NCBI RefSeq assembly: GCF_016735495.2
Contig: NZ_JAERQY020000005.1
Location: forward strand, 1 to 64,000
DNA length: 64,000 bases
Direction: 5' to 3'
Origin: Lysobacter sp. MMG2
Lineage (GTDB): Bacteria; Pseudomonadota; Gammaproteobacteria; Xanthomonadales; Xanthomonadaceae
In this document: positions 42,223 to 60,425 of the stretch, piece after piece
How positions within the stretch are numbered: position 1 is the stretch's first letter
Layout of the letters: the number at the start of each line of letters is the position of its first letter
Notes under the pieces: model-generated
Told to the model about the DNA's origin: nothing
What the model saw: the letters and a program-made list of their open reading frames with translations, nothing else
Database searches by the model: none
Position numbers and translations under genes: made by a program

Positions 42223-42264
42223 ATGGCGCGAAGCCGTCTGCGTGGGTGAAGTGCGTATCAGGGG

Positions 42265-42964: not shown

Positions 42965-42967
42965 GAA

Positions 42968-43051
42968 AGCGCTGTGGGTCTGAAGCGGACATTAGTACCG
43001 GTCCCGGCGCCTGGCAGCCCCGGTGTCCGCTAACAGCCAGAAGCGGACTTT
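42968..43051 (+). repeat. AGCGGACAT bipartite hairpin repeat, copy R1
   Basis: Two imperfect palindromes (AGCGCTGTGGGTCTGAAGCGGACATT and GGTGTCCGCTAACAGCCAGA-AGCGGACTTT) are separated by about 25 variable bases. It lies 51 bp beyond the stop of the minus-strand receiver pseudogene. Confidence 0.8.
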
Positions 43052-43102
43052 TGCCACACTCACAACGCCAGATGGATCGGCTGCGAACAGGCCATTGAAT
43101 CC

Positions 43103-43460
43103 TCACCGTCCATCTGAGCACGCTCGACAGATCTGTAGTGCACTCTCGAGGTCGTTCAACAGGTACGGCTTCCTCAAATGTGGTCCACCGCGCATCACAG
43201 CGAGAATCTCGTCGCCGTCATATGTACTTGCAACCACATACGGAATCCCGCGCTCAGTAAGCAGGATGGCGACGTTGGCACCCGTCTCGCCTCCGAGATC
43301 AACATCCAGCCGCGCCGCGGCAATTGATGGCTCCCGATGGATCAGTTCGATCGCTTCCTTTACCGATCTGGCATGAACGGCCCGTGTGGCCTAGGTTCCT
43401 CAACGCCATGACAACGCAGGCGGCGCAGTCCGGGTCGTCTTCCAACACCAAGATCAGCAT
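43103..43460 (-). pseudogene. Single-domain response regulator (receiver), frameshifted
   Basis: From ATG 43460 the frame reads MLILVLEDDPDCAACVVMAL, a receiver-domain start with the acidic pair. After the codons for NLGHTG (about 43,395) the frame is lost. The next frame continues coherently (KEAIELIHREP, LDVDLGGETGANVA, PYVVASTYDGD, RKPYLLNDLESAL) to TGA at 43103. The span is 3n+1 nt, so a single 1-nt indel explains it. The protein was CheY-like, about 118 aa. It lies between repeat copies R1 and R2. Confidence 0.7.
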
Positions 43461-43585
43461 CGTCGCCCCCGCGAGAATTCTCGGCGGAACTTGCCTGAGC
43501 AGGCGTGATGATCGCGGCAATAGACCGCTCACGAGTCGCTGGCTAGCAAAAGGCGAAGTAAGACAGCGCGTCGGACGGCTCTTCG

Positions 43586-43673
43586 ATGTCCACTTAGGGT
43601 CGGAAGCGGACATTAGCAGCCCGGCCCAGCTCGTCCCGGCCGAACGTCCGCTATCGGCCAAAAGCGGACATCC
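43586..43673 (+). repeat. AGCGGACAT bipartite hairpin repeat, copy R2
   Basis: ATGTCCACTTAGGGTCGGAA-GCGGACATTAGC, a spacer, then AACGTCCGCTATCGGCCAAA-AGCGGACATCC. It lies 68 bp beyond the DUF1254 stop. Confidence 0.85.
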
Positions 43674-43741
43674 AGCTTGTTCGCGCAAGCCATCAGGAAG
43701 GCCCGCTACAACGGGCCTCCCCGGGTTTTACTGCGCGCTTG

Positions 43742-45229
43742 CTACATGCGCTTTAGCGCCGGTGGCGCCCATGCACCCTCCATGACAGCGGCGCGGGGCG
43801 AATACAGGCGCAGCGTCGGCTGGATCGGGCCGGATACCGGTGACGGCAACCAATTGGACTCCTTGTCCGCGCCCGGCGATTGAGGCTGGATATAAATGTC
43901 CAGCGAACCGTCGGCGTTGAACTTGAGCTTGTCGCGGTCGCCGATGGCGAAGCGGTCGATGGGGTTCGGCACCTGGAAACCCTGCGCGTCGTACATGGTC
44001 AGCGACCAGAAGGCGTCGGCTGGCGGCAGTTGGCCCTTGTCAAAGTGCAGGACGTACTTGTTGGCGCCATCCAGCGGTTTGCCGTCGCTGTCTGCGAACA
44101 CCGACGGATAGATCGCATCCTCAGGCAGGTTGGCGCCCAGGCCCGCCAGCGCCACGGTGGCGCGTCGCAGGTAGGACGTGCCGTAGGCGCCCATGCCCTC
44201 GGTCGTCAGATTCCAGCCGTTGACGTGGGTGGCGCCGCCGCCGCGCTTGATGTTGGCCGTGATGTCGGCCAGCGCCGCCTTCGCGCCATCGTTGATGAGT
44301 GCAGTGGTCTTATCGTCGAACTTGCCGGCGTCCCAGTCGTGCCCGGGCGACAGCCCCATCGCGCGCATGCGGAAGAGGATCGGGTAGTCGTTGGCGTGCG
44401 GCGGATATTTCTTCAGCAGTTGCGCGAAGCGGTTGAAGAAATCGACGCCGCTCATCTTGTCCAGCGTTACCAGTGGCGGTGTCTTGTCGTCCACGCTGGC
44501 GTCGACCGGCGACGTCGCCGGCGGCGCGTAGTCCTTGCCCCAACTCGCCAGGGGGGTCAGCTTCAGGCCGTCCTGGACCTTGTGCACGTTCTCGTAGTCG
44601 GAAGGCCCGTTCGTCTGCGTGCGTCCCATCATCCAGATCGTCGACGTCGGCGCCTGGATTCTCTCGACACCCTCCGGCAGCGTGCCGGTCCAGCCGGGAG
44701 GCACGTACGCAAAGTGGCCGGCCTTGGTGCCCGTCGTGCGCGCGCCCAAGGACGAGAATACGTCGGACCACATGTCCAGCGTCGGCACCAGGTAATAGCG
44801 GCCGTCGGTGTCCGGAACCGTGAGGATGACCGGCCCCTGGCTCAGGTCGAGCCAGGCAAACGAGTACAGCGTGTCGAAGTTGAACCGCACCACGTCCTTG
44901 GCGTCGGCCTTCGGGTAGCTGCGGAAGTGCGCGAACTGGTTGATCGGCGCTCGCATCGACACCGCGGTCGCGTTTGGCACGTTGGTCGCCTGCCGCTGCG
45001 TGACGTCCATCAGCACCAGCGGGTAGGCGTAGGTGTAGACATCTTTGACTAGCGCGGCGGCTTTTTCGGGCGTCAACGTATCGAGAGCGGGTGCGGGCGC
45101 CGGGCTGGTCGATGCGATCTGGGACGGTTCGGAGCCGCTTTGTGTGGCGGATGCCTGTTCGCGCGAGCAGGCGGCGATGGCCAACGATAACAGCGCGATG
45201 GCGATTGGAATGGTGACGGTCGAGCGCAT
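43742..45229 (-). CDS. DUF1254/DUF1214 lipoprotein
   Basis: A 495-aa protein with a lipoprotein signal (IAIALLSLAIAACSREQ, lipobox then Cys). DUF1254 spans residues ~60-190 (VYTYAYPLVLMDVTQRQ, FDTLYSFAWLDLSQGP) and DUF1214 is at the C-terminus (PADAFWSLTMYDAQGF ... DGSLDIYIQ). The domains adopt a beta-rich fold of unknown enzymatic role and sit in the periplasm. The gene is bracketed by repeat copies R2 and R3. Confidence 0.85.
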   Translation of the reverse strand: MRSTVTIPIAIALLSLAIAACSREQASATQSGSEPSQIASTSPAPAPALDTLTPEKAAALVKDVYTYAYPLVLMDVTQRQATNVPNATAVSMRAPINQFAHFRSYPKADAKDVVRFNFDTLYSFAWLDLSQGPVILTVPDTDGRYYLVPTLDMWSDVFSSLGARTTGTKAGHFAYVPPGWTGTLPEGVERIQAPTSTIWMMGRTQTNGPSDYENVHKVQDGLKLTPLASWGKDYAPPATSPVDASVDDKTPPLVTLDKMSGVDFFNRFAQLLKKYPPHANDYPILFRMRAMGLSPGHDWDAGKFDDKTTALINDGAKAALADITANIKRGGGATHVNGWNLTTEGMGAYGTSYLRRATVALAGLGANLPEDAIYPSVFADSDGKPLDGANKYVLHFDKGQLPPADAFWSLTMYDAQGFQVPNPIDRFAIGDRDKLKFNADGSLDIYIQPQSPGADKESNWLPSPVSGPIQPTLRLYSPRAAVMEGAWAPPALKRM

Positions 45230-45302
45230 GGCTTCCTCCCTGGATGGCCTCCAATGGTCATCGGGGGAAAGGTGAAGGCGCAGTGAGGGACGGACATCAC
45301 CG

Positions 45303-45390
45303 ATGACCGCTATGGGTCGGAAGCGGGCATTAGCGCCGTCGATGCCATCCCACCGAGCCGAACGTCCGCCAACGGCCAGAAGCGGACGTT
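45303..45390 (+). repeat. AGCGGACAT bipartite hairpin repeat, copy R3
   Basis: ATGACCGCTATGGGTCGGAA-GCGGGCATTAGC, a spacer, then AACGTCCGCCAACGGCCAGA-AGCGGACGTT. It lies upstream of the DUF1254 start and at the 3' end of the small membrane ORF 45310-45684, whose last codons run into it. Confidence 0.85.
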
Positions 45391-45684
45391 TGGAACTGAC
45401 GACCCGGGGAAAATTGTGTCGAACACCCGGTCCATGACCTTTGCGGCTCTATCCGTGTGCTTACATGAAGTGGTATGCCCAGTAGCGTCAAGATGATCCC
45501 CGCCACCATCGACACCATTCGGGCCGACGTAGTGCCACTCCCCCGCATCGCAACTGCATGACCATTCCGGCTCTGACGCCGCCATTGTCACCATCAAGGC
45601 GACGGCGAGTGTCGCCACGATTGCTCCCGGAATCAGGACCAGCCAAGTTCTATTCTCCACGATGCCCCGCAATGAATGAATCAC
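45310..45684 (-). CDS. Small single-pass membrane protein (tentative)
   Basis: The frame from GTG 45684 (or GTG 45660) encodes a hydrophobic helix (WLVLIPGAIVATLAVALMV) followed by a short soluble part (SCSCDAGEWHYVGPNGVDGG, HTTSCKHTDRAAKVMD). The last ~20 codons are translation of repeat R3 and are probably not conserved. The ORF fills the space between R3 and R4 exactly. It is not part of the very long ORF reading through this region. Confidence 0.4.
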   Translation of the reverse strand: MIHSLRGIVENRTWLVLIPGAIVATLAVALMVTMAASEPEWSCSCDAGEWHYVGPNGVDGGGDHLDATGHTTSCKHTDRAAKVMDRVFDTIFPGSSVPNVRFWPLADVRLGGMASTALMPASDP

Positions 45685-45687
45685 CCC

Positions 45688-45776
45688 AATGACCGCTTTG
45701 GGTCGGAAGCGGACATTAGCACCACCGACGCGGCCAAGCTCGGCCGCATGTCCGCTATCGGCCAGAAGCGGACATT
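45688..45776 (+). repeat. AGCGGACAT bipartite hairpin repeat, copy R4
   Basis: AATGACCGCTTTGGGTCGGA-AGCGGACATTAGC, a spacer, then ATGTCCGCTATCGGCCAGAA-GCGGACATT. It lies between the small membrane ORF start and the sulfatase, 95 bp before the sulfatase ATG. It is the only full copy not at the 3' end of a minus-strand gene. Confidence 0.85.
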
Positions 45777-45870
45777 CGCCCTCACAAACTTCTAACCGTC
45801 CTGCGCTATACCAGCGCCGCTCAACCCCATGAGCCAGCGGCTGGCTGGTTTCCAGCCTAGGAGAGATGGT

Positions 45871-47376
45871 ATGGCAGCGAATGGAGCGGAAACACCGAAC
45901 ATCCTGTTTATCATGGGCGACGACATCGGCTGGTACAACGTCAGCGCCTACAACTTGGGGGTTATGGGATACAAGACGCCCAACATCGATCGCATCGCGA
46001 AGGAAGGTGCGCTGTTTACAGATTGGTACGGGCAGCAGAGCTGCACTGCCGGGCGAGCGGCATTCCTCACCGGCCAGTCCCCGATACGTACCGGCCTCAC
46101 GAAGGTCGGCCTGCCTGGCGCGGAGCTGGGCCTGGGGCCGGACGATCCCTGCATCGCGCAGGTGTTGAAGGCAAGAGGCTACGCCACCGGGCAGTTCGGC
46201 AAGAACCACCTCGGCGACCGCGACGAGCATCTCCCGACGATGCATGGCTTCGATGAGTTCTTCGGCAACCTTTACCACCTCAACGCCGAGGAGGAGCCGG
46301 AGAACGAGGACTACCCCAAGGATCCGCGCTTCAAGGAGAAATTTGGTCCGCGCGGCGTGTTGCGCTGCAAGTCCGACGGCAAGGGCGGACAGACCATCGA
46401 GAACACCGGCGCGTTGAACAAGAAGCGTATGGAGACGATCGACGAGGAATTCCTCTCCGACGCCAAGGATTTCATCAGGCGCAACAACGGCAAGTCTCCG
46501 TGGTTCTGCTACTTCAACTCCACGCGCATGCACATTTTCACGCACCTTAAGAAGGAGTCGCAGGGAAAGACGGGGCTCGGCATTTATCCCGACGGCATGG
46601 TCGAACACGACGGACACGTCGGCGAACTGCTTGCGCTCCTGGATGAACTGGGCGCGACAGACAACACCATCGTTGTTTACACCACCGACAACGGCGCCGA
46701 GTGCTTCACCTGGCCTGACGGCGGTACCACGCCTTTCCGGGGCGAGAAGGCGACGAACTGGGAAGGCGGCTTCCGCGTGCCTTGCGCCATCCGCTGGCCC
46801 GGCGTCATCGAACCCGGTCGAGTGATCAACGAGATCTGCTCGCACGAAGATTTCCTCGCGACGCTGGGCGCGGCGGCGGGCGACGGCGACGTCGTCGAGC
46901 GCATCCGCAAGGGTGGAAAGATCGGCGACAAGATCTTCAAGGTGCACCTGGACGGCAACAACCTGATCCCGCTGTTCAAGGGCGAGGCCGACAAATCGCC
47001 GCGTGAGTTCTTCCCGTACTGGAGCGACGACGGGGATCTTCTGGCGATCCGCGTGAGGCAATGGAAGATCACCTTCATGGAGCAGCACGCCGAAATCACG
47101 CCCAAGACGCCCCTTGGCGTATGGCAGGGGCAGTTCACCGTGCTGCGTGCGCCGAACATCTACAACCTGCGCTCCGACCCCTTCGAAGGCGGAACCGACG
47201 GCATCTACTACGGCGACTGGCAGGCGCATCGCGTCTTCCTGCTCGTCCCGGCGCAGGCGATCGTCGGCAAGATGCTTGAGAGCTTCAAGGAGTTCCCGCC
47301 GCGCGCGAAGGCCGCGAGCTTCACCGTCGGCGACGCGATGGAAAAGATCAGCACGGCGAGCCCAAGCCAGAACTGA
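45871..47376 (+). CDS. Arylsulfatase (alkaline-phosphatase superfamily)
   Basis: A 501-aa protein from ATG 45871 (GGAGAG upstream). The metal site begins NILFIMGDDIGWYN. The formylglycine signature is SCTAGRAAFLTGQ, with Ala in place of the usual Pro of CxPxR, a variant known to be accepted by maturases. VVYTTDNGAE and KATNWEGGFRVP complete the metal and substrate site. There is no signal peptide, so hydrolysis of a sulfate ester would occur in the cytosol. An IS110-family element sits right behind the gene. Confidence 0.85.
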   Translation: MAANGAETPNILFIMGDDIGWYNVSAYNLGVMGYKTPNIDRIAKEGALFTDWYGQQSCTAGRAAFLTGQSPIRTGLTKVGLPGAELGLGPDDPCIAQVLKARGYATGQFGKNHLGDRDEHLPTMHGFDEFFGNLYHLNAEEEPENEDYPKDPRFKEKFGPRGVLRCKSDGKGGQTIENTGALNKKRMETIDEEFLSDAKDFIRRNNGKSPWFCYFNSTRMHIFTHLKKESQGKTGLGIYPDGMVEHDGHVGELLALLDELGATDNTIVVYTTDNGAECFTWPDGGTTPFRGEKATNWEGGFRVPCAIRWPGVIEPGRVINEICSHEDFLATLGAAAGDGDVVERIRKGGKIGDKIFKVHLDGNNLIPLFKGEADKSPREFFPYWSDDGDLLAIRVRQWKITFMEQHAEITPKTPLGVWQGQFTVLRAPNIYNLRSDPFEGGTDGIYYGDWQAHRVFLLVPAQAIVGKMLESFKEFPPRAKAASFTVGDAMEKISTASPSQN

Positions 47377-47384
47377 GAAGGATA

Positions 47385-47411
47385 CGGAGCGCGCACTATC
47401 GGCGCGCTCCG
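47385..47411 (+). terminator. Strong hairpin after the sulfatase gene
   Basis: CGGAGCGCGC-7 nt-GCGCGCTCCG is a perfect 10-bp GC-rich stem 8 bp after the stop. It lacks a T-tract. It lies 15 bp from the IS110-family terminal repeat and could also have been the insertion target. Confidence 0.5.
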
Positions 47412-47426
47412 GTCCAATGTCCGTAT

Positions 47427-48514
47427 ATGGACTCCTCTCCTTCGATCCGCGGCGCAGCATGGCCCAGGCCATGCGTGCCGCCTTGTTGGCCATCGCCACA
47501 CAGGCCACGTCCGGGTGCGATCCGGCCGACAGGCGGGTGACCCAGCGACTCAATGGATCGTCGTGGCGCGGCGCCGTTCGCAGCATCGCCCGGGCGCCGT
47601 GCACCAGCAGCAAACGCACGTAGGCGTCGCCACGCTTGCTGATGCCCAGCAAGCGCTCCTTGCCGCCGGAACTGTGCCGGCGCGGCGTCAGTCCCAGGGA
47701 TGCCGCCATCTGCCGGCCATTGGCGAACTGGCGGGCATCGCCCACGCAGGCCAACAGCGCGGTCGCAACCAGCGGGCCGACGCCGCGAAGTTGCTGCAGC
47801 CGGCGCGCATCCGGGGCGGCCTTGGCCGCGTCGCTGATCTGGCGGTCCAATTCGGCTACACGCTCATCCAGCACACGCAAGTCGCGCCACAGTCCGTCGA
47901 GCCGGTGTCGAAAGTGCTCGCTCAATCCGTTGTCGACCGCTTCCAGCCAGCACGGAATCGCGCGGCGCAGCGATGACAACTCCTTCGGAGCGACCAAGCC
48001 ACACTCGGCGACCAGGCCACGGATCTGATTGCCTTTCGCCGTCCCCTGCCCCACGAGCTCGCGCGCGTCCGCTGAAGATCCTGCTGGGCCACGCTCTTCA
48101 CGCTGACGAAGCGCATGCACGGCCGGCTCATCGCCTCGCAGATCGCCTCTGCATGGTTGGCGTCGTTCTTGTTGCTCTTCAAGTATGGCTTCACGAACTG
48201 CGGCGCGATCAGCTTCACGCGATAACCCAAAGCCTGCAGTTGTCGCGCCCAATGATGCGCCCCGCCACACGCTTCCATGCCGATTTCACACCCCGGCGGC
48301 GCCGCCTCCGTGACGGCCTTGATCCACCGATCTCGCGACAAGCGGCGACGCCACGCCGGTTGCTCATGCCGATCGACCCTGTGGACCTGGAATACCTGCT
48401 TGGCCACGTCGACTCCAATGCGCGTAAGCTGCTTCATGGTGGACTCCTCCTCGTCGCGACTGGTTCTTTCGCTTCCAGTCTGGCACTCGATGCCGTAGAC
48501 GGAGAGGAGTCCAT
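47427..48514 (-). mobile_element. IS110-family (IS1111-like) element with 14-bp inverted ends
   Basis: ATGGACTCCTCTCC (47427-47440) and its exact reverse complement (48501-48514) flank the transposase. Subterminal inverted repeats are a feature of the IS1111 subgroup of IS110. The exact outer ends and any bridge RNA cannot be fixed from one copy. Confidence 0.7.
47430..48437 (-). pseudogene. IS110-family transposase, frameshifted
   Basis: From ATG 48437 the N-terminal DEDD RuvC-like domain is clear (IGVDVAKQVFQVHRVD, EACGGAHHWARQL, KNDANHAEAICEA). Near 48,070 the frame breaks after QQDLQ. A second frame continues with ARELVGQGTAKGNQIRGLVA and the C-terminal Transposase_20 domain (LRGVGPLVATALLACVGDAR, MAASLGLTPRRHSSGGKE, MANKAARMAWAML). 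No stop codon occurs before the right repeat, so the C-terminal end is undefined. The catalytic Ser motif region is present, but the gene is split. Confidence 0.75.
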
Positions 48515-48528
48515 CTCATTGCTCCCCG

Positions 48529-48589
48529 GCGCCCAGGTAGTGCAGCTCCATTTTTCCCACGCCTACAACCGGGTATGACACCTGGGCGC
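48529..48589. repeat. Long inverted repeat beside the IS110-family element
   Basis: GCGCCCAGGT (48529-48538) and ACCTGGGCGC (48580-48589) pair perfectly around 41 nt that contain TTTTTCCC. It lies just outside the element's left repeat. It could be part of the element (bridge-RNA-like structure) or a terminator. Confidence 0.5.
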
Positions 48590-49243
48590 GTCGGCCCGCA
48601 CACTAAGTATTTCTACGCGGAGACGAGCAGCATGATTACGGTGGACCCTTGCTGTGCTTGGAGGTACTACTTCCACCCATTGACATGCGCAACACTCGCA
48701 ACCGCCCTGTTAGTCAATCGAAGCTCTGACGAATCGTTCAGGCAGATCACAACGCGGAGGAGTCGTCATGTATTGCGTTAGCTCTCGTGATGATCAGACG
48801 GGCGCTAGCTTCACAGCGCCCCTTCCTCCAGTACGTTCGCTTGCAGAGGCGAATCGCGCACAAAGCGTTGAGTGGGGCGAGGTTCGCAGCTGCGCGCGGG
48901 CAACATTCAGAACGATTCGCGTGGAGTGGCGAACAGTAGCGTTGCCGCGCTGGATGACGTCGCAGGCAGCAAAATCGGCGGCGGGAGACGGTCCACTTCG
49001 ACCGACGCTCGAATCCGACCGAACCTTCGCAGTGTTCCAACCGGGCTCACCCAACGGGTCGATGCTCGCGTGCGCCTGGCATCGGATGGCAGCACTACGC
49101 GCGTGAGCTGTTAATCCTTTGGACAATGCCGCCACGGAGGGTGGCGACCCGCCGACATATCGCATTGGCTTCACTTCGTTTCCTGGCTGGTGAGTAGACG
49201 CTCGCCGCGTCTTGTCATCTGCCCCACATGCGCAGGTGGCCCC
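48590..49243. other. Gene-poor spacer with one doubtful ORF
   Basis: Short ORFs lie on both strands. The only hint of a real gene is ATG 48768 preceded by GGAGGAG (6-nt spacing), listed separately. Nothing else is supported. Confidence 0.35.
48768..49106 (+). CDS. Doubtful small ORF with a strong ribosome-binding site
   Basis: A 112-aa product starting MYCVSSRDDQTGASF, with GGAGGAG ideally placed before the ATG. The composition is not gene-like after the first ~30 residues and no domain is recognised. It may be the start of a decayed gene. Confidence 0.2.
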   Translation: MYCVSSRDDQTGASFTAPLPPVRSLAEANRAQSVEWGEVRSCARATFRTIRVEWRTVALPRWMTSQAAKSAAGDGPLRPTLESDRTFAVFQPGSPNGSMLACAWHRMAALRA

Positions 49244-50848
49244 ATGACGTCCTATCGTGCGAACCGTCGCGACTTCCTGAAGACGAGCGGCCTGGCGGCG
49301 CTCGGCGTCGCGCTTTCCAAGAACCTTTACGCGCAAGCGTCCGGCGCTGCGACATCCTCACCGTCGTCGTTCGACATCGATGCCGCGTTTGCGACGTTCA
49401 TGCGCGATCTCGGTGGGACCGCGCAGGACGGAGGCGGCAGCGTGACGTTCACCGGCGCCGATCCCATCCTGCGCAGCCATTTCCGCATCGGCGCCAGCAT
49501 GGCCATTCCGGCGATGGGCGCGGCGGTTGGCGCCGCGGCCATCTGGAAGGCTCGCACCGGAGAGGGGCAGGACCTCAGGGTCGACCTGCGCGACTCGGTA
49601 TGGAACGTCAACCCGATGGTCGGACTGGTCGCGCAGCAACTGCAGAAGGCCGGCCAGATTCCGGCCAACGATCCGATTCCCGGCAATCTGACGTGGATGC
49701 CGACCGTCAACGGCTTGATGGTGCAGGCACCGCTCGGATTGGGCCATCCGATGTCGTTTCGTCCATTCGCCACGAAGGACGGACGCTTCATGAATTTCAC
49801 CGGCGCCTATCCGCACCTCGGCGACCGCGTGCTCAACACGCTCAAGTGCCCGCCCAATCTTGCCGCGATCCAGGCCGCGTCGCGGGAATGGAACGCGCTC
49901 GAACTGGAGGAGGCCCTGGCCGAAGCGCGCGCAGCAGGCGCCATGCACCGCACCGCGGAGGAATGGGCGCGTCATCCCGAGGGTATCCACCTGGCGGGCA
50001 AGCCGCTGATCGAGATCGTCAAGCTCGGCGATTCGGCGCCGGTGCCCTTCACCGAAAATCCGACGCGCCCGCTATCGGGCATCAACGTGTTGTCGCTCAC
50101 GCACGTGATCGCCGGCACCACCGCGTCGCGCACCCTGGCCGAATACGGCGCCAACGTGCTGCACGTCGCGCGCGACCAGGGTTTCGAACACGAAGCGCTC
50201 GTGATGGACGTCAATGTGGGCATGCGCTCGACGTTCGTGGACCTACGCGATCAGAAGCAGAACGCGCGGCTGGCCGAACTGGTGCCCCAAACCGACGTGT
50301 TCGCCGAGTCGTTTCGTGGCGGTGCGATCGAACGGCTCGGCTTCGGCCCCGCGGAAGTCGCACGTCGGCGGCCCGGCGTCGTGTACCTGTCGGTGCGCTG
50401 TTACAGCCACGACGGCCCTTGGCGCGACCGCGCGGGCTTCGACATGGAAGGGCTCACCGTATCCGGATTCACGCTGGCCGAGGGCGATGGCACGCCGCGG
50501 TTTCCGCCAACGTTGGTGATGAACGATTACATCGCCGGCTATCTGGGTGCATGCGGCGTCCTCGCCGCGTTGCGGCGACGCGCCACGGAAGGCGGCAGCT
50601 ACCACGTGCGCGTGTCCTTGACCCGTGCGGCCATGTGGTACAAGTCGCTCGGCCAATTCGCCACCACGGCGTTCGACGCGACGCGCCCCGAGCACCGCAT
50701 CGGCGCGCCTCGCACGATCACGCGACAGACTCCCTACGGCGAAGTGGTGCGCCTCGCCCCTCAGGTGGAACTGTCGAAGACGCCGGGCCAATGGCGCGAT
50801 CCGCTGGTCGCGGTGCGCGGAAGCGATCGCCCCCGGTGGCGCGCCTGA
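49244..50848 (+). CDS. CoA-transferase family III (CaiB/BaiF) protein with Tat signal
   Basis: A 534-aa protein from ATG 49244. It opens with a twin-arginine signal (NRRDFLKTSGLAALGVALS). The body is a family III CoA-transferase-like chain with a duplicated-looking N-terminal part (residues ~75-240) and the family core LSGINVLSLTHVIAGTTASR ... EYGANVLHV ... DVFAESFRGGAIERLGFGP ... SVRCYSHDGPW. The normal catalytic Asp lies in a segment that here reads AGFDMEGLTVSG. Members act in the cytosol on acyl-CoA, so Tat export is odd. The outer-membrane OprB gene starts 14 bp downstream. Confidence 0.75.
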   Translation: MTSYRANRRDFLKTSGLAALGVALSKNLYAQASGAATSSPSSFDIDAAFATFMRDLGGTAQDGGGSVTFTGADPILRSHFRIGASMAIPAMGAAVGAAAIWKARTGEGQDLRVDLRDSVWNVNPMVGLVAQQLQKAGQIPANDPIPGNLTWMPTVNGLMVQAPLGLGHPMSFRPFATKDGRFMNFTGAYPHLGDRVLNTLKCPPNLAAIQAASREWNALELEEALAEARAAGAMHRTAEEWARHPEGIHLAGKPLIEIVKLGDSAPVPFTENPTRPLSGINVLSLTHVIAGTTASRTLAEYGANVLHVARDQGFEHEALVMDVNVGMRSTFVDLRDQKQNARLAELVPQTDVFAESFRGGAIERLGFGPAEVARRRPGVVYLSVRCYSHDGPWRDRAGFDMEGLTVSGFTLAEGDGTPRFPPTLVMNDYIAGYLGACGVLAALRRRATEGGSYHVRVSLTRAAMWYKSLGQFATTAFDATRPEHRIGAPRTITRQTPYGEVVRLAPQVELSKTPGQWRDPLVAVRGSDRPRWRA

Positions 50849-50862
50849 GTGAGACCGAAGCC

Positions 50863-52146: not shown

Positions 52147-52170
52147 AACGCATCCATCGGGGAGCCTGTC

Positions 52171-52977
52171 ATGCACCTAGCAGTGCCTTGTGTGGGCCTG
52201 GCAATGCTGGCGGCGCCGCTATCGGGTCTGGCCCAGGCGGCGGAAGCCGACCGGCTGGCCCAGCAGTTGGCCAACCCGATCTCCAGCCTGACCAGCGTGC
52301 CGCTGCAGTTCAACTACATCGACGGGCTAGGCGTGAACGATGAAGCATCGCGCACGTTCCTCAACGTGCAGCCCGTCGTCCCCGTGTCGATCGGCGAGAA
52401 CTGGAATCTGATATCGCGCACCATCGTGCCAATCATCTATCAGGAGGGCGTGTTTCCGGGGGCAGGAAGCCAATTCGGCACGGGGGATGTGCTGCAGAGC
52501 CTGTTCTTTTCGCCCAAGGCGTTGACCGCATCAGGCTGGACGTGGGGCATCGGCCCCGTGCTCCTGCTGCCTACCGCCAGTGACGATCTGCTGGGAGGCG
52601 AGAAGTGGGGTGGCGGGCCCACAGCCGTCGTGCTCAAGCAGACCCCGCAAGGCTGGACGTACGGCGCGCTGGTCAATCACATCTGGTCGTTTGCCGGCGA
52701 TGACGATCGTGCCGACGTCAGCTCCACCTTCCTGCAGCCCTTCGTCGCGCGCGGAGTGGGCCAGGGACGCACCGTGTCGGCTAGCCTGGAGTCCACGTTT
52801 GATTGGAAGGCTCGGCAGTGGACGATTCCTGTGAACTTCTTCTACTCGAAGGTGAGCCGGATTGGCTCGCAGATGGTGAGCTACCAGGGCGGCATCAACC
52901 TGTTCGTCGACTCGCCGGCCGGCGGTCCCGAATGGGGCGTGCGGTTCACGCTCACGTTCCTCTATCCGCGTCGCTGA
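52171..52977 (+). CDS. Outer-membrane transporter-like beta-barrel protein
   Basis: A 268-aa protein with a signal peptide (VGLAMLAAPLSGLAQAAEA). It is beta-rich (LQFNYIDGLG, FLNVQPVVPVSIGENWNLI, WTWGIGPVLLLPTAS, GVRFTLTFLYPRR) and resembles the small barrel family often annotated as 'transporter' or 'neuromedin U'. The function is unknown. It lies 24 bp after the OprB gene. Confidence 0.65.
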   Translation: MHLAVPCVGLAMLAAPLSGLAQAAEADRLAQQLANPISSLTSVPLQFNYIDGLGVNDEASRTFLNVQPVVPVSIGENWNLISRTIVPIIYQEGVFPGAGSQFGTGDVLQSLFFSPKALTASGWTWGIGPVLLLPTASDDLLGGEKWGGGPTAVVLKQTPQGWTYGALVNHIWSFAGDDDRADVSSTFLQPFVARGVGQGRTVSASLESTFDWKARQWTIPVNFFYSKVSRIGSQMVSYQGGINLFVDSPAGGPEWGVRFTLTFLYPRR

Positions 52978-53008
52978 CGCAGCCGACACCACGCACGAGG
53001 CCCGCGTC

Positions 53009-53920
53009 ATGCCGCTCGACAACCGCTCCGAGCAGCGCCACCTCCTCTTCTCGATCCTGGTGACCGTGGTGCTCGGCGGTGCCGGGGTGATCATCGGCCT
53101 GCTCGCGCGTTCCCGGGCGATCGTGTTCGACGGCATGTACAGCCTGGTCGACGTGGTCATCACGAGCGTCTCGCTGGTAATCGCGCGACTGATCGCCACC
53201 GAGGGAACACGCCGGTTCCAGTACGGGTTCTGGCACCTGGAGCCCTTGATCGAAGCTTTCGGTGGCGCCGCACTTGGTTTGTCGTGCCTCTACGCGACGC
53301 TGACGGCGATCGCCGACTTGCGGGCCGGCGGGTCGCGGGAAGTGCAGTACGGCGCGGGCATGATCTGGGCGGCGCTGACCGCGGCCCTGGGGTTTGCAAT
53401 GGCATGGTTGATGCACCGCGCGTCCAGACGAACCGCGTCCGGGTTGCTCGCGATGGATGCGCGCGGGTGGCTGGTCTCCGGCGGCCTGAGCGTTGGTCTG
53501 CTGGTCGGATTCAGTGCGGCGCGCATCATGGCCGACGGCCCCCTCGCGGCATGGGTTCGCTACTGCGACGGTCTGGTGCTGCTGGTGGTGTCGCTGGCGC
53601 TGCTGCCGGTACCGTTTCGCTCCCTCTGGCACGCGGCGGCCGAGGTCGGCCAGATGGCGCCCGCGGCGTTAGACGCACGCGTAGCCGAAGTGCTCGCACA
53701 AGCGCTACAGCATTACGGATTCACCGACTTCACCAGCTATGTCACCCAATCTGGGCGGGCGCGATTCGTGGATATCCAGCTTCTGGCGCCGCCCGGTTAC
53801 GAAGACGGCGCCGTTGACCGATTGGACGCGCTTCGGAACCACATCGCCGCGGCCATTAGCGATGACGATGCGCACCTATGGCTGACCGTCAGTGTTACGT
53901 GCGAAAGGCGTTGGATGTGA
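53009..53920 (+). CDS. Cation diffusion facilitator (CDF) family transporter
   Basis: A 303-aa protein with six transmembrane helices. The second helix carries FDGMYSLVDVVITSVSL (D-x3-D metal site, where HxxxD or DxxxD is usual), then RFQYGFWHLEPLIEAFGG, and a C-terminal cytosolic domain (residues ~210-303). It should export a divalent cation (Zn, Fe, Mn or Co) in exchange for protons. It ends the plus-strand run of envelope genes; R5 follows. Confidence 0.8.
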   Translation: MPLDNRSEQRHLLFSILVTVVLGGAGVIIGLLARSRAIVFDGMYSLVDVVITSVSLVIARLIATEGTRRFQYGFWHLEPLIEAFGGAALGLSCLYATLTAIADLRAGGSREVQYGAGMIWAALTAALGFAMAWLMHRASRRTASGLLAMDARGWLVSGGLSVGLLVGFSAARIMADGPLAAWVRYCDGLVLLVVSLALLPVPFRSLWHAAAEVGQMAPAALDARVAEVLAQALQHYGFTDFTSYVTQSGRARFVDIQLLAPPGYEDGAVDRLDALRNHIAAAISDDDAHLWLTVSVTCERRWM

Positions 53921-54080
53921 CCCTCGCGCCTTTCGAGCGCACCACATCTGGGGGCGCCAAGCTCTCGTAACGGTTTGGATGAGGCGCAAGTGCTGCCCAA
54001 TTGTGACGGTGCAGCGGATCCCGTTGCGGCAAGTCTGCCGCAACGAAGTCTGCAGTGGAGTCGTCCGCGCGCACCGATGG

Positions 54081-54170
54081 AATGACCGCTTCGGGTCGAA
54101 AGTGAAAATTCGCACCCCCAGCCGCGGCCGGCCGCGATCAATGTCCACTATCGCCCAGAAGCAGACGTTG
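54081..54170 (+). repeat. AGCGGACAT bipartite hairpin repeat, copy R5 (diverged)
   Basis: AATGACCGCTTCGGGTCGAA-AGTGAAAATTCGC, a spacer, then AATGTCCACTATCGCCCAGA-AGCAGACGTT. It is the most diverged full copy. It lies 14 bp beyond the HupE-like gene stop. Confidence 0.75.
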
Positions 54171-54184
54171 GGCGTCAACCAAAT

Positions 54185-55192
54185 TTAGCCCAGGAACGCT
54201 CCGGCCCGCTCGACCACCCAGAACATCGCGACACTACCGATCGCGTACGGCATCGCGACCTCGGCGGAACGCGGCAGCGCCCACCGGCGAAGTCGCGCGA
54301 ACCTGAGCAACAACAGCACGGCGGTGACGAACATTAACTGCCCGATCTCCACGCCGACGTTGAACATCAGCAGCGCCACCGGTATCGCGTTCTGTGGTAG
54401 GCCCACTTCCGCCAGCGCACCGGCAAACCCCAGTCCGTGCAGCAACCCGAAGCCGAAGGCCACTAACCACGGCGCGCGAGCGGTCAAGCCGGGATTGCCG
54501 CGCAGCCCGTGCACGACTTCGGCCGCGACGAAGGCGATGCTCAGCGCGATGGTCGCCTCCAGCGGCGGGCCGGGCACGTGCACCCACCCCAGCGTGGCCG
54601 CGACCAGCGTGATGCTGTGCGCGACGGTGAACGCGGTGACCGTGGCAACGATGCGCAGGCCGCCCCGCACAATCAGCAGCAGCGCCAGCACGAACAGCAG
54701 GTGGTCGAAGCCGCCAAGAATGTGCTCAACGCCAAGCACGAGGTAGGTCTTCGCCACCGCGAGCGCGCCGGCCGGCGCTTCGACGACGAACGCGGGCGCG
54801 TCCGGCATCAGGCGTTCGACCTGGCTGCTGCCGTCCAGCCGTTCGACGCGCGCGAGCACGTCGGTGATGCTGCCCGACACGCCTTCGATGCGGATCGTTT
54901 GCCCGACCAATCCACCGGCGCGGTGGATCCGGCGTCGCTCGATCACCGCGCCGGGCACGGCATAGGTCTGCGCCGCACCCGCCTCCTCCGTGTCGGGCGG
55001 AAAAACTATGCGCGACGGCGCGCGCAGGGATTCGCCGAGTGCTGGAACTTTCCACAGCACGTCGTACGAGTTGTTGCCGGTTTCACGCAATTCCAGGTAC
55101 GCCGGCCGGAAGACGTCCGCCATCAACGGCCATGCCAGCAACAGCAGTGCGAGCAGCGCCCAGCGCAAGCCGCGAAGCGGTATGCGCTTCAT
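54185..55192 (-). CDS. HupE/UreJ-family membrane protein
   Basis: A 335-aa protein with a signal peptide (LLALLLLAWPLMA), a periplasmic N-terminal domain (~130 aa) and a C-terminal HupE/UreJ_2 membrane domain of about six helices. Metal-type histidines lie in LGVEHILGGFDHLLFVLA, VAHSITLVAATLGW and FGFGLLHGLGFAGAL. Related proteins transport nickel or cobalt, but this longer form is not proven to do so. It is last in the DUF3604-PpiC-HupE operon; its ATG overlaps the previous stop (ATGA). Confidence 0.8.
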   Translation of the reverse strand: MKRIPLRGLRWALLALLLLAWPLMADVFRPAYLELRETGNNSYDVLWKVPALGESLRAPSRIVFPPDTEEAGAAQTYAVPGAVIERRRIHRAGGLVGQTIRIEGVSGSITDVLARVERLDGSSQVERLMPDAPAFVVEAPAGALAVAKTYLVLGVEHILGGFDHLLFVLALLLIVRGGLRIVATVTAFTVAHSITLVAATLGWVHVPGPPLEATIALSIAFVAAEVVHGLRGNPGLTARAPWLVAFGFGLLHGLGFAGALAEVGLPQNAIPVALLMFNVGVEIGQLMFVTAVLLLLRFARLRRWALPRSAEVAMPYAIGSVAMFWVVERAGAFLG

Positions 55193-56061
55193 GGCGCGGT
55201 CGACGCGAGCGCGGCGGCGGACTGGGGCGATGGAGCCTCGACCTTCACTACATAACGGGCACGCAGGCGCTGATACAGGTCTTTCTGCGCTTGACGCGCG
55301 CGACTGGCAAGCACATCGCGCTGCACCTGATCATGCACGTCGGCAAGCGTGGGCATCGAGCCCGGCTCGCGCGTCGTTACGCGGACGAAGTGGAGGCCGT
55401 ACGGCGATCGCACCGGTCCCGACCACGCGCCGAGCGGGCTGCTGTCGATCACCTTGGCGAAGCCTGTGCCGAACACGTTTTCTACATCACTTGCCGTGAC
55501 CGTATCGAGGACGGCGGGGAGCATGGTGCCGTCGCCGACGCGTCGCCAATCGGTGCCGGGCTTGGCGAGGGCGCCCCTGACGTCAGCAACAGCACGCGCG
55601 GCATCACCGACGTGACGCGACGGATCCACGTACGCCTGCTGTAACGTGTACACCGTCGGCCGCCGGTACTGCATGGCATGCGTATCCAGCCATGCTTGCA
55701 GCTCGCGCTCGGTCGGCGGTTGCGGCGTCTTCTGCACCAGGAACGCGACCTTCTGTCCGACGCGTCGGCGCACCACGGCATCGTCGCGCTCCAGCCCCAG
55801 CGCCAGGCCTTCGCGGTACAGGACTTCCTCGCGGACAAACTGCTCGATCAGGCCCTCGCGCTCGTCTCGCGTGGGCGTTCGCTGCCACACCAGGCGGAAC
55901 TGCTCGTCGAGCGAGGCGATGCGGTCGGCGCTGACGACGATCGCTTCGCCCTCCCCCGACGCACGGGGATTCACCCACGCGTACAGCGCGAACATTGCCG
56001 CGCCCGCGACGGCGAAATGCAAAAGCGGCTCGCGCAGCAGTCGATGCAAGGCCGGATTCAT
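55189..56061 (-). CDS. PpiC-type peptidyl-prolyl cis-trans isomerase
   Basis: A 290-aa protein with an N-terminal membrane anchor (LLHFAVAGAAMFALYAWV) and a SurA-like helical part. A parvulin domain occupies residues ~150-240 (TVYTLQQAYVDPS, FGTGFAKVIDSSPLGAWSGP, SPYGLHFVRVTTREPGS). It would assist folding of exported proteins in the periplasm. Start and stop codons overlap both neighbours, so it is translated with DUF3604 and HupE. Confidence 0.82.
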   Translation of the reverse strand: MNPALHRLLREPLLHFAVAGAAMFALYAWVNPRASGEGEAIVVSADRIASLDEQFRLVWQRTPTRDEREGLIEQFVREEVLYREGLALGLERDDAVVRRRVGQKVAFLVQKTPQPPTERELQAWLDTHAMQYRRPTVYTLQQAYVDPSRHVGDAARAVADVRGALAKPGTDWRRVGDGTMLPAVLDTVTASDVENVFGTGFAKVIDSSPLGAWSGPVRSPYGLHFVRVTTREPGSMPTLADVHDQVQRDVLASRARQAQKDLYQRLRARYVVKVEAPSPQSAAALASTAP

Positions 56062-57926
56062 GGCGTGTACCAAATCGGCGACGTCCATGCGCGTTCCTGG
56101 ATTGTCGCTTCCACGTCCTTTCGGGGCGCGATGCCTAGCTTGGCCGCATCGAAGGTGCTCCAGCGCGGCGTGGGGATCTCGAGCACGCGAACGTAGTAGA
56201 ACGCCGGCTGCGTCGCGTCGAAGTCCGGGTCGCTCCACACCGCCGAGAGCTCGGCCGCGCCGATGTCGTTGCTGTAGGTCGCCGTCTTGATGTCGACCGT
56301 GTTGCCCACCGGCGGCGCCTTGCCCGTGGACGGGTCGACCTTGCGGTCGCCAGACAGCGCGACGTCGTAGATGCGGTCCTGCGCCTTGCCGTCCTTCACC
56401 CAACCCTTGATGATCTGGATGCGATCGAGGTTGGCGCCATCGGGATCCTTCGTCGCCGCCACCGCGAATGTCGGCGCCTGGCCGGACGGCGACTTGGGCA
56501 GGTTTCCGCCCATCGGCACACCGCCACTGTAGGCGGCCTTGATCCAGTCGGGCTGGCGCACGAGGTCGGCTGCGTAACCGTAACCGCCGAAGAAGCGCGG
56601 CCGCACGCGCACGCCGCTGGTGCCGAAGGTCTCGTTGCGCTTGATCGCCGCGAAGATCGACTCGCGCGTGTTCTGCTCGGCCCAGACTCCGGTGAGGCCA
56701 CCGCTACCCACTGCGTACGAGTACGGCTCTTTGGGCTTGACGATGCGCGCCTCAGGCGAATCGTCGGCGTCGCCGTGCACGCCCTTGAAGTTGTTCTCCT
56801 CGGGTTGCGAACCGCCGGCGTGCGAATCGCTGCCTGCGACGATGCCGAACTTGAACGGGTTGGCGCCGATCTTACGCTGATACAGCAGACCGTTCTTGAA
56901 GGCCTCGCGTAGGTAACTGTGCTTCGGATCGAACTTCGCCTGCTTGGACAGATCGTCGAAGGTTCCCAGTTGGAAGGTGGAAGCTTCGAAACCGGCGAAC
57001 TCATCGTTCGGCGCCACCAACGGGTGCGTCTCCGACGCCCCTTTGACCTGGATAATCTCGTGCGCGACCTCGTTGAGCGTGCGACGTTTGGCGTAGGCTG
57101 CATCGAGCGGCTTGCCGTAGGAGTCGGACTCCGCAAACATCAGCCCCCCTGAGATATTGCCGTTGTGCGAGATGGCCACCACGTCGCTGCCATCCTTGCG
57201 CGCCGTCTCAAGGTAGGTCCACAAGTCTTCCGGCTTCTGCGAATCCAGCGCCGAGAATGGCATGGCCGGCACCTTCTCGCTGCCGAAGATCACGTTGCGG
57301 TGCAGGTTGTTGTTGTCCGGCATTGACGTCCATTCGAAGGCGACGAATGTGGTGAACGTCCCGGGCTGGTAATGCTTCCTGGCTTCGTCAGAGTACTGCG
57401 TCCACACCGATTGGATGAGCTTGGGCTGGACCAACTCCGGCCGCGGCTTGTTGGTGGCGATGTCGCTGACGACGGACAGGTACGCCTTCATCCGCGTGTC
57501 GTAGTCGTCGCTGCGGAAGGCCTTGCCCAGCTCCGTGTCGTACAGCGGTCCGCCCTCGCGTCGCAACTCCTGCACCGCACCGGCGTACTCGGCGTGATCG
57601 GTCACCGCAAGGAAGTCGAGCGGCCGCTTAAGCTGGATGGTCTGGTTGCCAAAGCGCGCGATCGCTTCTCCCTTCGCGTAGCGATAGGCATCGTCGGGCG
57701 TGCTGTCCGTCATCAAAGCTGCATCGGCCGAGTAGCCGGTGTGCAGGTGCAGATCGCCGAAGTAGGCATTGCGCTCGGGATTGGTAGACGCAGCAGGGTT
57801 CGCCACGTCCGTCGCGGCCGTTTCGGTCGATGGTGCAGGCGGTGGATCTGGCGCCTTGGAGCAAGAAGTGGCGGCCAGTGCGGCCACCGAGATAGAAGCG
57901 ACTGCCGCGATACGCCAGCTGTGCAT
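56058..57926 (-). CDS. DUF3604 lipoprotein (PHP-like metal-dependent hydrolase fold)
   Basis: A 622-aa protein with a lipoprotein signal (VASISVAALAATSCSKAP). PHP-type metal motifs are present: YFGDLHLHTGYSADA (~62), LAVTDHAEYAG (~108), VAISHNGN (~250) and GIVAGSDSHAGG (~365). The fold suggests hydrolysis of a phosphoester or other ester in the periplasm; the substrate is unknown. It is the first gene of the three-gene operon with PpiC and HupE, which often co-occur. Confidence 0.82.
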   Translation of the reverse strand: MHSWRIAAVASISVAALAATSCSKAPDPPPAPSTETAATDVANPAASTNPERNAYFGDLHLHTGYSADAALMTDSTPDDAYRYAKGEAIARFGNQTIQLKRPLDFLAVTDHAEYAGAVQELRREGGPLYDTELGKAFRSDDYDTRMKAYLSVVSDIATNKPRPELVQPKLIQSVWTQYSDEARKHYQPGTFTTFVAFEWTSMPDNNNLHRNVIFGSEKVPAMPFSALDSQKPEDLWTYLETARKDGSDVVAISHNGNISGGLMFAESDSYGKPLDAAYAKRRTLNEVAHEIIQVKGASETHPLVAPNDEFAGFEASTFQLGTFDDLSKQAKFDPKHSYLREAFKNGLLYQRKIGANPFKFGIVAGSDSHAGGSQPEENNFKGVHGDADDSPEARIVKPKEPYSYAVGSGGLTGVWAEQNTRESIFAAIKRNETFGTSGVRVRPRFFGGYGYAADLVRQPDWIKAAYSGGVPMGGNLPKSPSGQAPTFAVAATKDPDGANLDRIQIIKGWVKDGKAQDRIYDVALSGDRKVDPSTGKAPPVGNTVDIKTATYSNDIGAAELSAVWSDPDFDATQPAFYYVRVLEIPTPRWSTFDAAKLGIAPRKDVEATIQERAWTSPIWYTP

Positions 57927-58053
57927 GACCGTGCCCTCGTGTTGGAGCGCCCTGGCTCAGTCCCACGCTCGAAGCGCCAACTATCGAGACACCCGTTTCG
58001 TCAAGCCAGCGTGAAGGCCTCGGGCCGGCTCATTGAAGGCGTACCCTGAGCGT

Positions 58054-58140
58054 GATGTCCGCTATGGGTCGAAAGCGGACATCAGCACCTGTCCCGCCTC
58101 CCCCTGCCCTGATGTCCGCTGTCGGCCAGGAGCGGACGTT
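58054..58140 (+). repeat. AGCGGACAT bipartite hairpin repeat, copy R6
   Basis: GATGTCCGCTATGGGTCGAA-AGCGGACATCAGC, a spacer, then GATGTCCGCTGTCGGCCAGG-AGCGGACGTT. It lies 17 bp beyond the stop of the small lipoprotein gene and upstream of DUF3604. Confidence 0.85.
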
Positions 58141-58157
58141 CGCTCCCGCTACTGAAG

Positions 58158-58505
58158 CTATCCCCTGATGCGGTACGAGAACACGCCTTTGCCAATGGCG
58201 ACGTAAGATGGGTCGGCACCAACTTGCGGCACGAAGTCCGAGGCCCGAGGCACAAACAGACCCCTCTCTTCAACGAAGAACGTTGAGGTGACGACATAGA
58301 GCCCTTCCTTTGCGATGTAGACGCGCTTGGGGTCAAGGCTCGAAATATCCGTAGGCCAGCGATCGGCAGGAAGGTCTCCGGCTTTGGAGGTTGTAAGCGC
58401 AATCCGTCCAGCTTGAGCAAGGGCCTGCAACGCCTCCGCGTCGGGCACAGTCCCGCAGCCGATAAGGCTCGCAATCAAGACAAGCAGGATGAGCGCGTGC
58501 TTCAT
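58158..58505 (-). CDS. Small hypothetical lipoprotein
   Basis: A 115-aa protein from ATG 58505 with a lipoprotein signal (ALILLVLIASLIGCGTVPD, lipobox LIGC). The mature part includes LDPKRVYIAKEGLYVVTSTF. No family was recognised. A longer ORF to 58550 only adds translated repeat R7 and should be ignored. The gene sits between R6 and R7. Confidence 0.6.
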   Translation of the reverse strand: MKHALILLVLIASLIGCGTVPDAEALQALAQAGRIALTTSKAGDLPADRWPTDISSLDPKRVYIAKEGLYVVTSTFFVEERGLFVPRASDFVPQVGADPSYVAIGKGVFSYRIRG

Positions 58506-58521
58506 GCCAGCGAACCTCTCC

Positions 58522-58606
58522 AATGTCTGCTTCGGGTCGAAAGCGGACATTAGCAGCCGTCGGCACCGCCGTCCCGTCCTAACGTCCGCTACCCGGAGCG
58601 GACACC
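58522..58606 (+). repeat. AGCGGACAT bipartite hairpin repeat, copy R7
   Basis: AATGTCTGCTTCGGGTCGAA-AGCGGACATTAGC, a spacer, then AACGTCCGCTACCCGGAGCG-GACACC with a shortened second hairpin. It lies 15 bp beyond the stop of the gene at 58622-58996. Confidence 0.8.
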
Positions 58607-58621
58607 TGCTCGAACGAACGG

Positions 58622-58996
58622 TCAGCTCCGAACGAACTGGACATGCTCCTTTCCTCGGTTGTCCAGCACATAGGACCGAACATAGATCCGATGATCCTCG
58701 GCGACGTAAACCTCAGTACGCATCTCCGAGATAGCACCAACGTCGACATTGTGCTGGCGCATATGCGTAGGAAGCGATTTACGGTAGTGCTTGAGAGACT
58801 CCCGTATGCGAGGCGTAAGTACAAACAGCTCGTCCGTTCGCTCGGGAATCCAGGAGACCGTGATCTTTTCTCCCCTCCGACCTCGTGCCAGCTGATACAT
58901 GTCCTCAAACACATAGTCCCCGTCAACATAGTTCATGCCACTCATGAAGGAGTGGGTCCAGTTGTGTGCCATGGACTTGATCAGCTTGTACTTCAC
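58622..58996 (-). CDS. Small hypothetical cytosolic protein
   Basis: A 124-aa protein (MKYKLIKSMAHNWTHSFMSG ... DMYQLARGRRGEKITVSW ... AISEMRTEVYVAEDHRIYVR). The composition is gene-like and AT-richer than neighbouring core genes. No domain is recognised. It lies between repeat copies R7 and R8. Confidence 0.55.
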   Translation of the reverse strand: MKYKLIKSMAHNWTHSFMSGMNYVDGDYVFEDMYQLARGRRGEKITVSWIPERTDELFVLTPRIRESLKHYRKSLPTHMRQHNVDVGAISEMRTEVYVAEDHRIYVRSYVLDNRGKEHVQFVRS

Positions 58997-59044
58997 GGGG
59001 AAGTGCTCGGTCCGAATGCGGGATGGCCGAGCGGACGGCTACCA

Positions 59045-59131
59045 AATGTCCGCTATGGGTCGAAAGCGGACATTAGCATCGCTCCGGCGCCCAGACTCGT
59101 CCAATGACCGCTATCGGCCATGAGCGGACAC
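59045..59131 (+). repeat. AGCGGACAT bipartite hairpin repeat, copy R8
   Basis: AATGTCCGCTATGGGTCGAA-AGCGGACATTAGC, a spacer, then AATGACCGCTATCGGCCATG-AGCGGACACA. It lies 11 bp beyond the stop of the small membrane protein gene. Confidence 0.85.
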
Positions 59132-59142
59132 AGGCTGGTACG

Positions 59143-59409
59143 TCAGGCTTCTTCCCGAAACTCGCGAATGCGGCGCCAAGCATGGCGGCACCAGCGAGGT
59201 CCCGCCAAGACGCAGTAGACCATCCACGTCAGCCCACCCAGCAGACCTGCGGCTCCAAATCCGAGCGCCATTCCATGGGCAGCCCCTTTAGCTCCCGCCA
59301 GCGAAGCGATGGCGGCCATTGCCCACGACACGAAGCTGATGGCGAGAAGAATGACGGAAGCCACGCGAAGGCGTGCGAGGAGGATCGTTTCGTATGATCG
59401 CAGCCACAT
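59143..59409 (-). CDS. Small two-helix membrane protein
   Basis: An 88-aa protein from ATG 59409 with AAGGAG upstream. Two hydrophobic helices are visible (VASVILLAISFVSWAMAAIA and ALGFGAAGLLGGLTWMVYCVL). The function is unknown. The ORF extends upstream to 59577 only through repeat R9 and into antisense of the LysR gene, so the shorter start is used. Confidence 0.55.
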   Translation of the reverse strand: MWLRSYETILLARLRVASVILLAISFVSWAMAAIASLAGAKGAAHGMALGFGAAGLLGGLTWMVYCVLAGPRWCRHAWRRIREFREEA

Positions 59410-59428
59410 CGCAAGACTCCTTCCTCGT

Positions 59429-59460
59429 ATGTCCGTTAGGGCTCGAGAACGGACATTAGC
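59429..59460 (+). repeat. AGCGGACAT repeat, first hairpin only (copy R9)
   Basis: ATGTCCGTTAGGGCTCGAGA-ACGGACATTAGC is a first-hairpin unit without a recognisable second hairpin. It lies 58 bp beyond the LysR stop at 59519 and upstream of the small membrane gene. Confidence 0.65.
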
Positions 59461-59518
59461 ACCGCTCTCCCTCGCCCTGAACCGCGGTGCGGACCGCCTT
59501 CTCCTGCCGCGCGAAAAA

Positions 59519-60391: not shown

Positions 60392-60425
60392 GGGCGCACT
60401 CTCGCAAGGTCCTTGCCGGCCTGCG

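Follow-up and report, generated by a model that had tools for sequence, protein, structure and literature searches.

Integrons and dif modules were the cassette-moving systems met in our literature search. Short invertases of the FimB/FimE type are about 200 amino acids long, consist of a catalytic domain only, and invert one promoter segment. In dif modules of the Acinetobacter plasmid type (p-dif), 28-bp sites with an 11-6-11 architecture (arm, spacer, arm) lie in alternating inverted orientation, and modules are exchanged where spacers match, according to the available parts of two reports (PMC13141974, PMC12907356). Repetitive extragenic palindromes (REPs) tagged with CGTC are common in alphaproteobacteria, seemingly without a dedicated transposase, and occur mainly as dimers, grouped elements being rare except in Neisseria and Wolbachia, as far as the accessible part of that survey goes (PMC3733652). 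Here we describe arrays of elements made of paired 28-bp sites, found in a stretch of 64,000 nucleotides from Lysobacter sp. MMG2 (positions 1-64,000 of contig NZ_JAERQY020000005.1; G000:C6:1-64000 in our handles for genome, contig and position). This whole stretch, hereafter the window, belongs to a 4.17 Mb genome in 10 contigs. The elements probably serve as recombination sites in an integron-like system of cassettes, one that is neither an IntI integron nor a XerCD dif module. Among the matches listed by our literature search (titles and abstract openings), neither the site nor a short recombinase with cassettes was described, and a search with the letters of the site returned, among the matches listed, only titles on unrelated subjects.

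Results

Each element is a pair of inverted 28-bp sites

Between positions 42968 and 59460 the window carries eight full elements and one half copy, and a further half copy lies at 41154; all are on the plus strand (Table 1). The copy number and single orientation reported in a preliminary description of this locus were thus reproduced, with one of its two half copies falling outside the interval it gave, while its unit length of ~85 bp is revised to about 88 bp. The B unit of the element at 58523 is shortened (about 58581-58605, read by eye), and the automatic caller therefore scored this element as half. Elements have the order A, variable middle, B, where each of the two units is a 28-bp dif-like site of 11-6-11 architecture: A is ATGTCCGCTTT-GGGTCG-AAAGCGGACAT, usually with TAGC next, and B is ATGTCCGCTAT-CGGCCA-GAAGCGGACAT. 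The reverse complement of either unit is a version of the other, so the two sites, about 59 bp apart, form an inverted pair that could fold into one hairpin. Most elements end in ...GCGGACATT, and single copies in ...GACGTT. In the Lysobacter loci, 461 sites were found at up to five mismatches in 20 arm positions, and the spacer was within one mismatch of that of A or B, in either orientation, in 443 of them. Near-neighbour pairs of sites in these loci had the order A then B in 124 of 138 cases and a spacing of 57-60 bp in 127 of 138.

The motif TGTCCGCTATSGG, at up to two mismatches, gave 22 matches in the window versus 3.6 expected from shuffles (largest shuffle, 9). In 1-41 kb no A-like unit was found at up to 11 mismatches in 32, and the B string gave only four chance-level matches on the plus strand, each with 11 mismatches in 29, in agreement with the earlier statement that this part lacks elements. 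Placement beyond minus-strand stop codons had been claimed for seven elements, at 11-68 bp or just overlapping the stop codon; it holds for six, at 10-69 bp (gene ends 43742, 54185, 58158, 58622, 59143 and 59519). The first element (42965) comes after a plus-strand stop codon at 42964, as had also been described. A search of 41-60 kb against Rfam gave nothing over the gathering score and only six sub-threshold matches. When three elements were folded as DNA on one or both strands, a long imperfect hairpin joining A and B was the best fold in four of five cases, and separate hairpins were best in the fifth (45683-45782, minus strand); z-scores of the five folds ranged from -3.95 to -5.8.

Elements form unidirectional clusters in Lysobacter and occur across the phylum

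In the genome of the window the A unit matched 41 times (33 forward, 8 reverse) versus none for the reversed pattern. Clusters lie on contigs C1, C3, C4, C6 (two) and C8, in addition to single copies, and every cluster points one way throughout; since several lie at contig ends, the count may be low. Each of the 12 genus genomes carried elements, with 6 to 99 model matches per genome (these counts cover both strands, and one element can count twice), and Lysobacter soli contig NZ_QTJR01000004.1 bears the same sites. The exact 28-bp pattern with a free spacer was found at least on alpha-, beta- and gammaproteobacterial contigs, for example of Caulobacter, Sphingomonas, Rhizobium and Dyella, with spacers that vary between taxa. 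Of 397 genomes sampled across the phylum, 31 matched at up to two mismatches, 14 of these twice or more.

Segments between elements behave as cassettes

Neighbouring elements of the same orientation bounded 140 segments of 60-2500 bp (median 488 bp). Genes were called 120 times, and 98 of them ran opposite to the element (p about 1e-12). Ten segment proteins were scanned with Pfam; two exceeded the cut-off (DUF1254/DUF1214 and a response regulator) and eight had no family. Seventeen segment families had at least two members, and none of the 23 homologous pairs was inverted. Wherever the family of the same-side neighbour was recorded for two members, it was always different. By sequence comparison, then, the segments appear to be single-gene cassettes in an oriented array, mobile between arrays in which they have other neighbours. 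Recombination sites that gather orphan genes were among the roles suggested in the preliminary description, and this is the one favoured by cassettes common to arrays with different neighbours and by crossovers in the sites.

The window matches the same-species strain G009 (L302-L303) at 99.75-100% over 26160-41115 and 61487-64000, and every window element lies in the strain-specific region between (Table 1). The sole other alignment of at least 150 bp with L302-L304 was 285 bp at 75% in L304, no elements were found in L302-L304, and parts of 41116-61486 have relatives of 72-85% identity elsewhere in G009. In another array common to the two strains, single cassettes differ. Where a half element marks the array end, the strains have different gene modules but keep both neighbouring cores; in G000/G009 a half site like the A-only one of the window thus placed terminates an array other than that of the window (L048:14716). 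Random placement and the loss of single repeats, which the preliminary description had named as refuting its reading, were largely not observed. One lone element without a gene was contained in an insertion or deletion of 118 bp that distinguishes two strains of the species (L018:17154-17271 versus L048:8871).

Junctions map in or next to the spacers

Junctions were mapped from pairs among 184 full elements in which only one flank is homologous, excluding elements less than 200 bp from a locus end; 16 pairs were left-linked and 13 right-linked, and 6 pairs shared both flanks. All 13 right-linked pairs (about 9 independent groups) were identical at B 12-17, 12 of 13 differed somewhere in B 1-11, and between 6 and 22 positions matched in their middles of 20 to 27. 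The B outer arm therefore moves with the gene, and the change falls within the spacer CGGCCA. Two junctions between same-species strains were likewise identical through B 17 and divergent from B 18. Left-linked pairs were tabulated for 13 of 16, the other three being omitted since an indel shifts the register. Their middles were fully shared in two pairs and nearly so in two more, which have a common type of middle (23 and 24 of 27), while the rest matched at 6-19 positions; as most middles are not shared, the change lies in or soon after the A spacer.

Comparison with described systems

Sites of 28 bp with an 11-6-11 architecture in alternating inverted orientation are also those of p-dif modules, with which the module logic agrees. 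Each of the 12 genus genomes, moreover, has two strong PF00589 matches that we take for putative XerC and XerD, and no other tyrosine recombinase is shared by every genome. It is nevertheless unlikely that XerC and XerD act on the elements as on dif modules of the Acinetobacter plasmid type. The genome has one dif-like match (G000:C1:7094, TTCGCATAA TGCATA TTATGTCAA) with ordinary Xer arms, unlike the element arms TGTCCGCTTT/AAAGCGGACA, whereas the p-dif arms tabulated in PMC13141974 resemble dif. There are two fixed spacers where p-dif has many, and one of the module types is a short core with roughly 30 bp between sites. Inversions have been reported for p-dif modules and were not seen in any of the 23 homologous pairs here, and the present system has a recombinase candidate of its own.

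A further explanation supposes REPs, REP doublets forming hairpins (REPINs) or palindromes like the Rhizobium-specific intergenic mosaic element (RIME) that a transposase would disperse, the genes being shuffled as the copies undergo homologous recombination. The intergenic pairing of inverted short palindromes and the insertion or deletion of one lone element fit this explanation, as does the frequency in alphaproteobacteria of CGTC-tagged REPs, for which the part of the survey at hand indicates no dedicated transposase. We regard it as improbable, and with it the REP-like role proposed earlier: the genome has no Y1_Tnp match (PF01797) and hence no Y1 or REP-associated tyrosine transposase (RAYT), and the copies cluster in arrays that run one way, contain gene cassettes and have their junctions at spacers, unlike the CGTC REPs as far as that part describes them. 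The outer arms, furthermore, move with the gene and not with the repeat core. Homologous recombination would spread breakpoints over the 88 bp, and since the B junctions are not spread but lie at the spacers, copy-copy recombination is a poor fit.

A true integron whose integrase has been lost (a cluster of attC sites lacking an integron integrase, CALIN), with unusual attC sites, is very unlikely. The likenesses are several: short single-gene cassettes mostly in one direction, a recombinase gene with an adjacent simple site, an attC-like foldable element with a variable terminal loop, arrays present without a recombinase, and IntI in the genus. IntI exceeded the cut-off (TIGR02249) in 2 of 12 genus genomes only, G005 and G010, and not in the genome of the window. 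These two have chromosomal integrons with ordinary attC sites (GCCTAAC...GTTAGGC and GCCTAAC...TTGTTAGGC), at least 12 in G010 (L074:8231-13824) and at least 21 in G005 (L076:8285-17190). Ordinary integrons thus occur separately in the same genus, no strong match to the element model lies next to them (15.9 bits and E 0.045 for the best), and these genomes have the fewest element-model matches (6 and 9). Identity with canonical attC was rejected after comparison with the two integrons. The elements have other arms, no conserved GTTRRRY, and two 11-6-11 sites with crossovers at both ends, and the candidate enzyme lacks the core-binding domain and the IntI insertion.

That the elements act only as terminators or as RNA-stabilising hairpins at the 3' ends of genes and take no part in recombination, as their position just past stop codons might suggest, is highly improbable, given that none of eight terminator-like patterns in 42,900-59,600 lay in an element (simple pattern scan; shuffles average 10.3) and that shared cassettes and junctions would be left unexplained; the earlier suggestion of terminators finds no support as the main role.

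The integron-like cassette system that we favour instead joins an integron-like working (cassettes, an oriented array and an attI-like site) to a dif-module build, and departs from each in a defining feature.

A short recombinase gene is linked to the sites

A short tyrosine recombinase of about 205-215 amino acids, with a catalytic domain and no core-binding domain, was found in genus genomes G004, G008 and G011. It matches Pfam PF00589, and no NCBIfam model exceeded its cut-off, the match to NF007371 being weak. In an alignment of 32 short recombinases, the R, K, H-R, H and Y columns, which we take to hold the catalytic residues, were at least 90% conserved, and both the N-terminal core-binding region and the IntI insertion were absent. 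The FimB/FimE invertases are alike in size and in having the catalytic domain only, but are not known to have cassette arrays.

At E up to 1e-20 and with fragments counted, 72 of 398 genomes of the phylum had the short recombinase. In 20 of 35 proteobacterial loci, the 110 bp past its stop codon hold a B-like half-site (spacer and right arm) that scored higher than the 99th percentile of 2768 control windows (rank test p = 2e-15); 18 of the 20 half-sites lay at 27-50 bp, and one (L242) has an A-type spacer. Sites at up to six mismatches numbered 20 in 30 enzyme loci versus 3.0 in shuffles. In two Lysobacter loci (L233, L234) the gene lies between two inverted A sites, with a hairpin between stop codon and site, and inverted sites flank it also in G150, G055 and G301. 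Support for lineage-specific arm variants at other enzyme loci is scattered; in L278 and L287, for example, inverted copies flank the gene. Ten sampled genomes had both sites and enzyme; the two shared a contig in seven, with the nearest site 27 bp to 59 kb away, and at most 12 kb away in six.

Discussion

We propose that gene modules, each consisting of a gene and the outer arms that two neighbouring elements contribute, alternate with short core modules (inner arms and variable middle), and that a tyrosine recombinase would exchange strands within the spacers of 6 bp, between two A sites or between two B sites. By A-A and B-B exchange, modules could be excised, inserted or swapped. The unlike spacers of A and B would block A by B inversion, so that the elements and most genes would keep one orientation. 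The likely enzyme, which would act on A and B, is the short catalytic-domain-only recombinase, whose gene in many loci bears an attI-like site just past its stop codon and in several lineages lies between inverted sites. The substrate may be duplex DNA or a folded single strand. In the strain of the window, the candidate enzyme may have been lost or may act in trans.

Several observations weigh against this proposal. As for the sites, 14 of 138 close pairs (in other genomes) are arranged otherwise than A then B, and the crossover point is less sharp at A than at B. The reversed control pattern matched once each in 6 of 397 genomes, and some single sites are therefore chance. In an alignment of 41 of the 42 full elements from the fetched parts of the genome (one weak element, in L017, omitted), RNAalifold found no covariation for the folded hairpin, and two separate hairpins kept 87% of pairs versus 84% for the joint A-B fold; the folded form is thus not favoured by the alignment. 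As for the cassettes, 22 of the 120 called genes run in the direction of the element, and the simple gene caller returned nothing in 41 of 140 segments. As for the enzyme, the window genome and eight other genus genomes lack the short recombinase, with only Xer-like matches (best E 1.5e-7), the gene is broken in G008, and G000 and G009 differ by swapped cassettes although the enzyme is absent. At 15 of 35 enzyme loci the half-site did not exceed the control threshold. Outside Lysobacter, 7 of the 14 longer loci with the enzyme had no site at up to five mismatches. The enzyme was present in 10 of 31 site-bearing genomes versus 62 of 366 others, a weak link (p = 0.036). The weakest points include the lack of the enzyme in the strain of the window, the scarcity in other lineages of additional sites with such arms, and the absence of support for the folded form from the alignment.

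If the proposal holds, bacteria may have a further means of shuffling cassettes, much like integrons but with sites designed differently and a recombinase that is probably another, very short one. Such a system, whose minimal recombinase occurs in 72 of 398 sampled genomes (fragments counted), could account for many short orphan genes. We put at about even the chance that it is an independent integron-like platform across Proteobacteria, defined by a catalytic-domain-only recombinase, an attI-like half-site and two orthogonal spacers in paired 11-6-11 sites, by which cassettes are captured and shuffled, with relic arrays as unrecognised gene reservoirs in many genomes. The two-site cassette mechanism is open to direct testing, and TGTCCGCTT-N8-AAGCGGACA provides a search handle for hidden cassette arrays.

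Other features of the window and of neighbouring loci

Table 1. Coordinates of elements, cassette genes and the strain-specific region in the window
Feature	Position	Strand	Remark
Strain-specific region with every window element	41116..61486	.	Replaced in same-species G009 by 4.55 kb without elements
Half element, B-type site only, degenerate right arm	41154..41182	+	39 bp inside left edge of strain-specific region
Full element (A, variable middle, B), degenerate left arm of A	42965..43051	+	
Full element	43586..43672	+	
DUF1254/DUF1214 protein gene between elements, 3' end towards element	43742..45229	-	
Full element	45303..45390	+	
Full element, B unit identical to B search string	45689..45776	+	
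Full element, more diverged	54082..54169	+	
Full element	58055..58140	+	
Cassette gene, no Pfam family	58158..58505	-	
Element with complete A unit, shortened B unit	58523..58605	+	Partly read by eye
Cassette gene, no Pfam family	58622..58996	-	
Full element, A unit identical to A search string	59046..59132	+	
Small cassette open reading frame, only sub-threshold Pfam match (DUF6112)	59143..59403	-	
Half element, A-type site only	59429..59460	+	

Open frames inside elements give rise to spurious small reading frames, with MSAIGQKRTF-like peptides at 45676-45795. Such peptides occur in alphaproteobacterial annotation; six strings of this kind were not found in the literature search. Between two elements, overlapping minus-strand frames that look broken (45310-48437) resemble, by eye, what is presumably a broken transposase of the IS110 family. 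The block at 41336-42286, an Hsp20-like gene (by eye) and a small neighbour, is 86-87% identical in array-bearing loci L052 and L062 of two other species, hinting that it may move with or near arrays.

Tyrosine integrases beside arrays were also considered as the array enzyme and dropped; those of L009, L056, L015 and L093 match one another at most weakly (best E 0.014). Tyrosine recombinase genes L009:9211-10299, L056:8630-9610 and L110:3405-3914 end 7-80 bp from an element or site. For the L056 prophage, no matching site at the far end was found within the 80 kb searched. The L009 and L056 enzymes look like phage or island integrases, suggesting that arrays may be landing places for other elements, and the L110 gene, from a Sphingomonas metagenome-assembled genome, resembles the short recombinase by eye. 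Short recombinase genes also occur as pairs: two inverted copies lie about 13 kb apart in G229 (L305:2052-2627 and 15077-15652), and two copies in the same orientation lie about 4.6 kb apart in G271 (L282).

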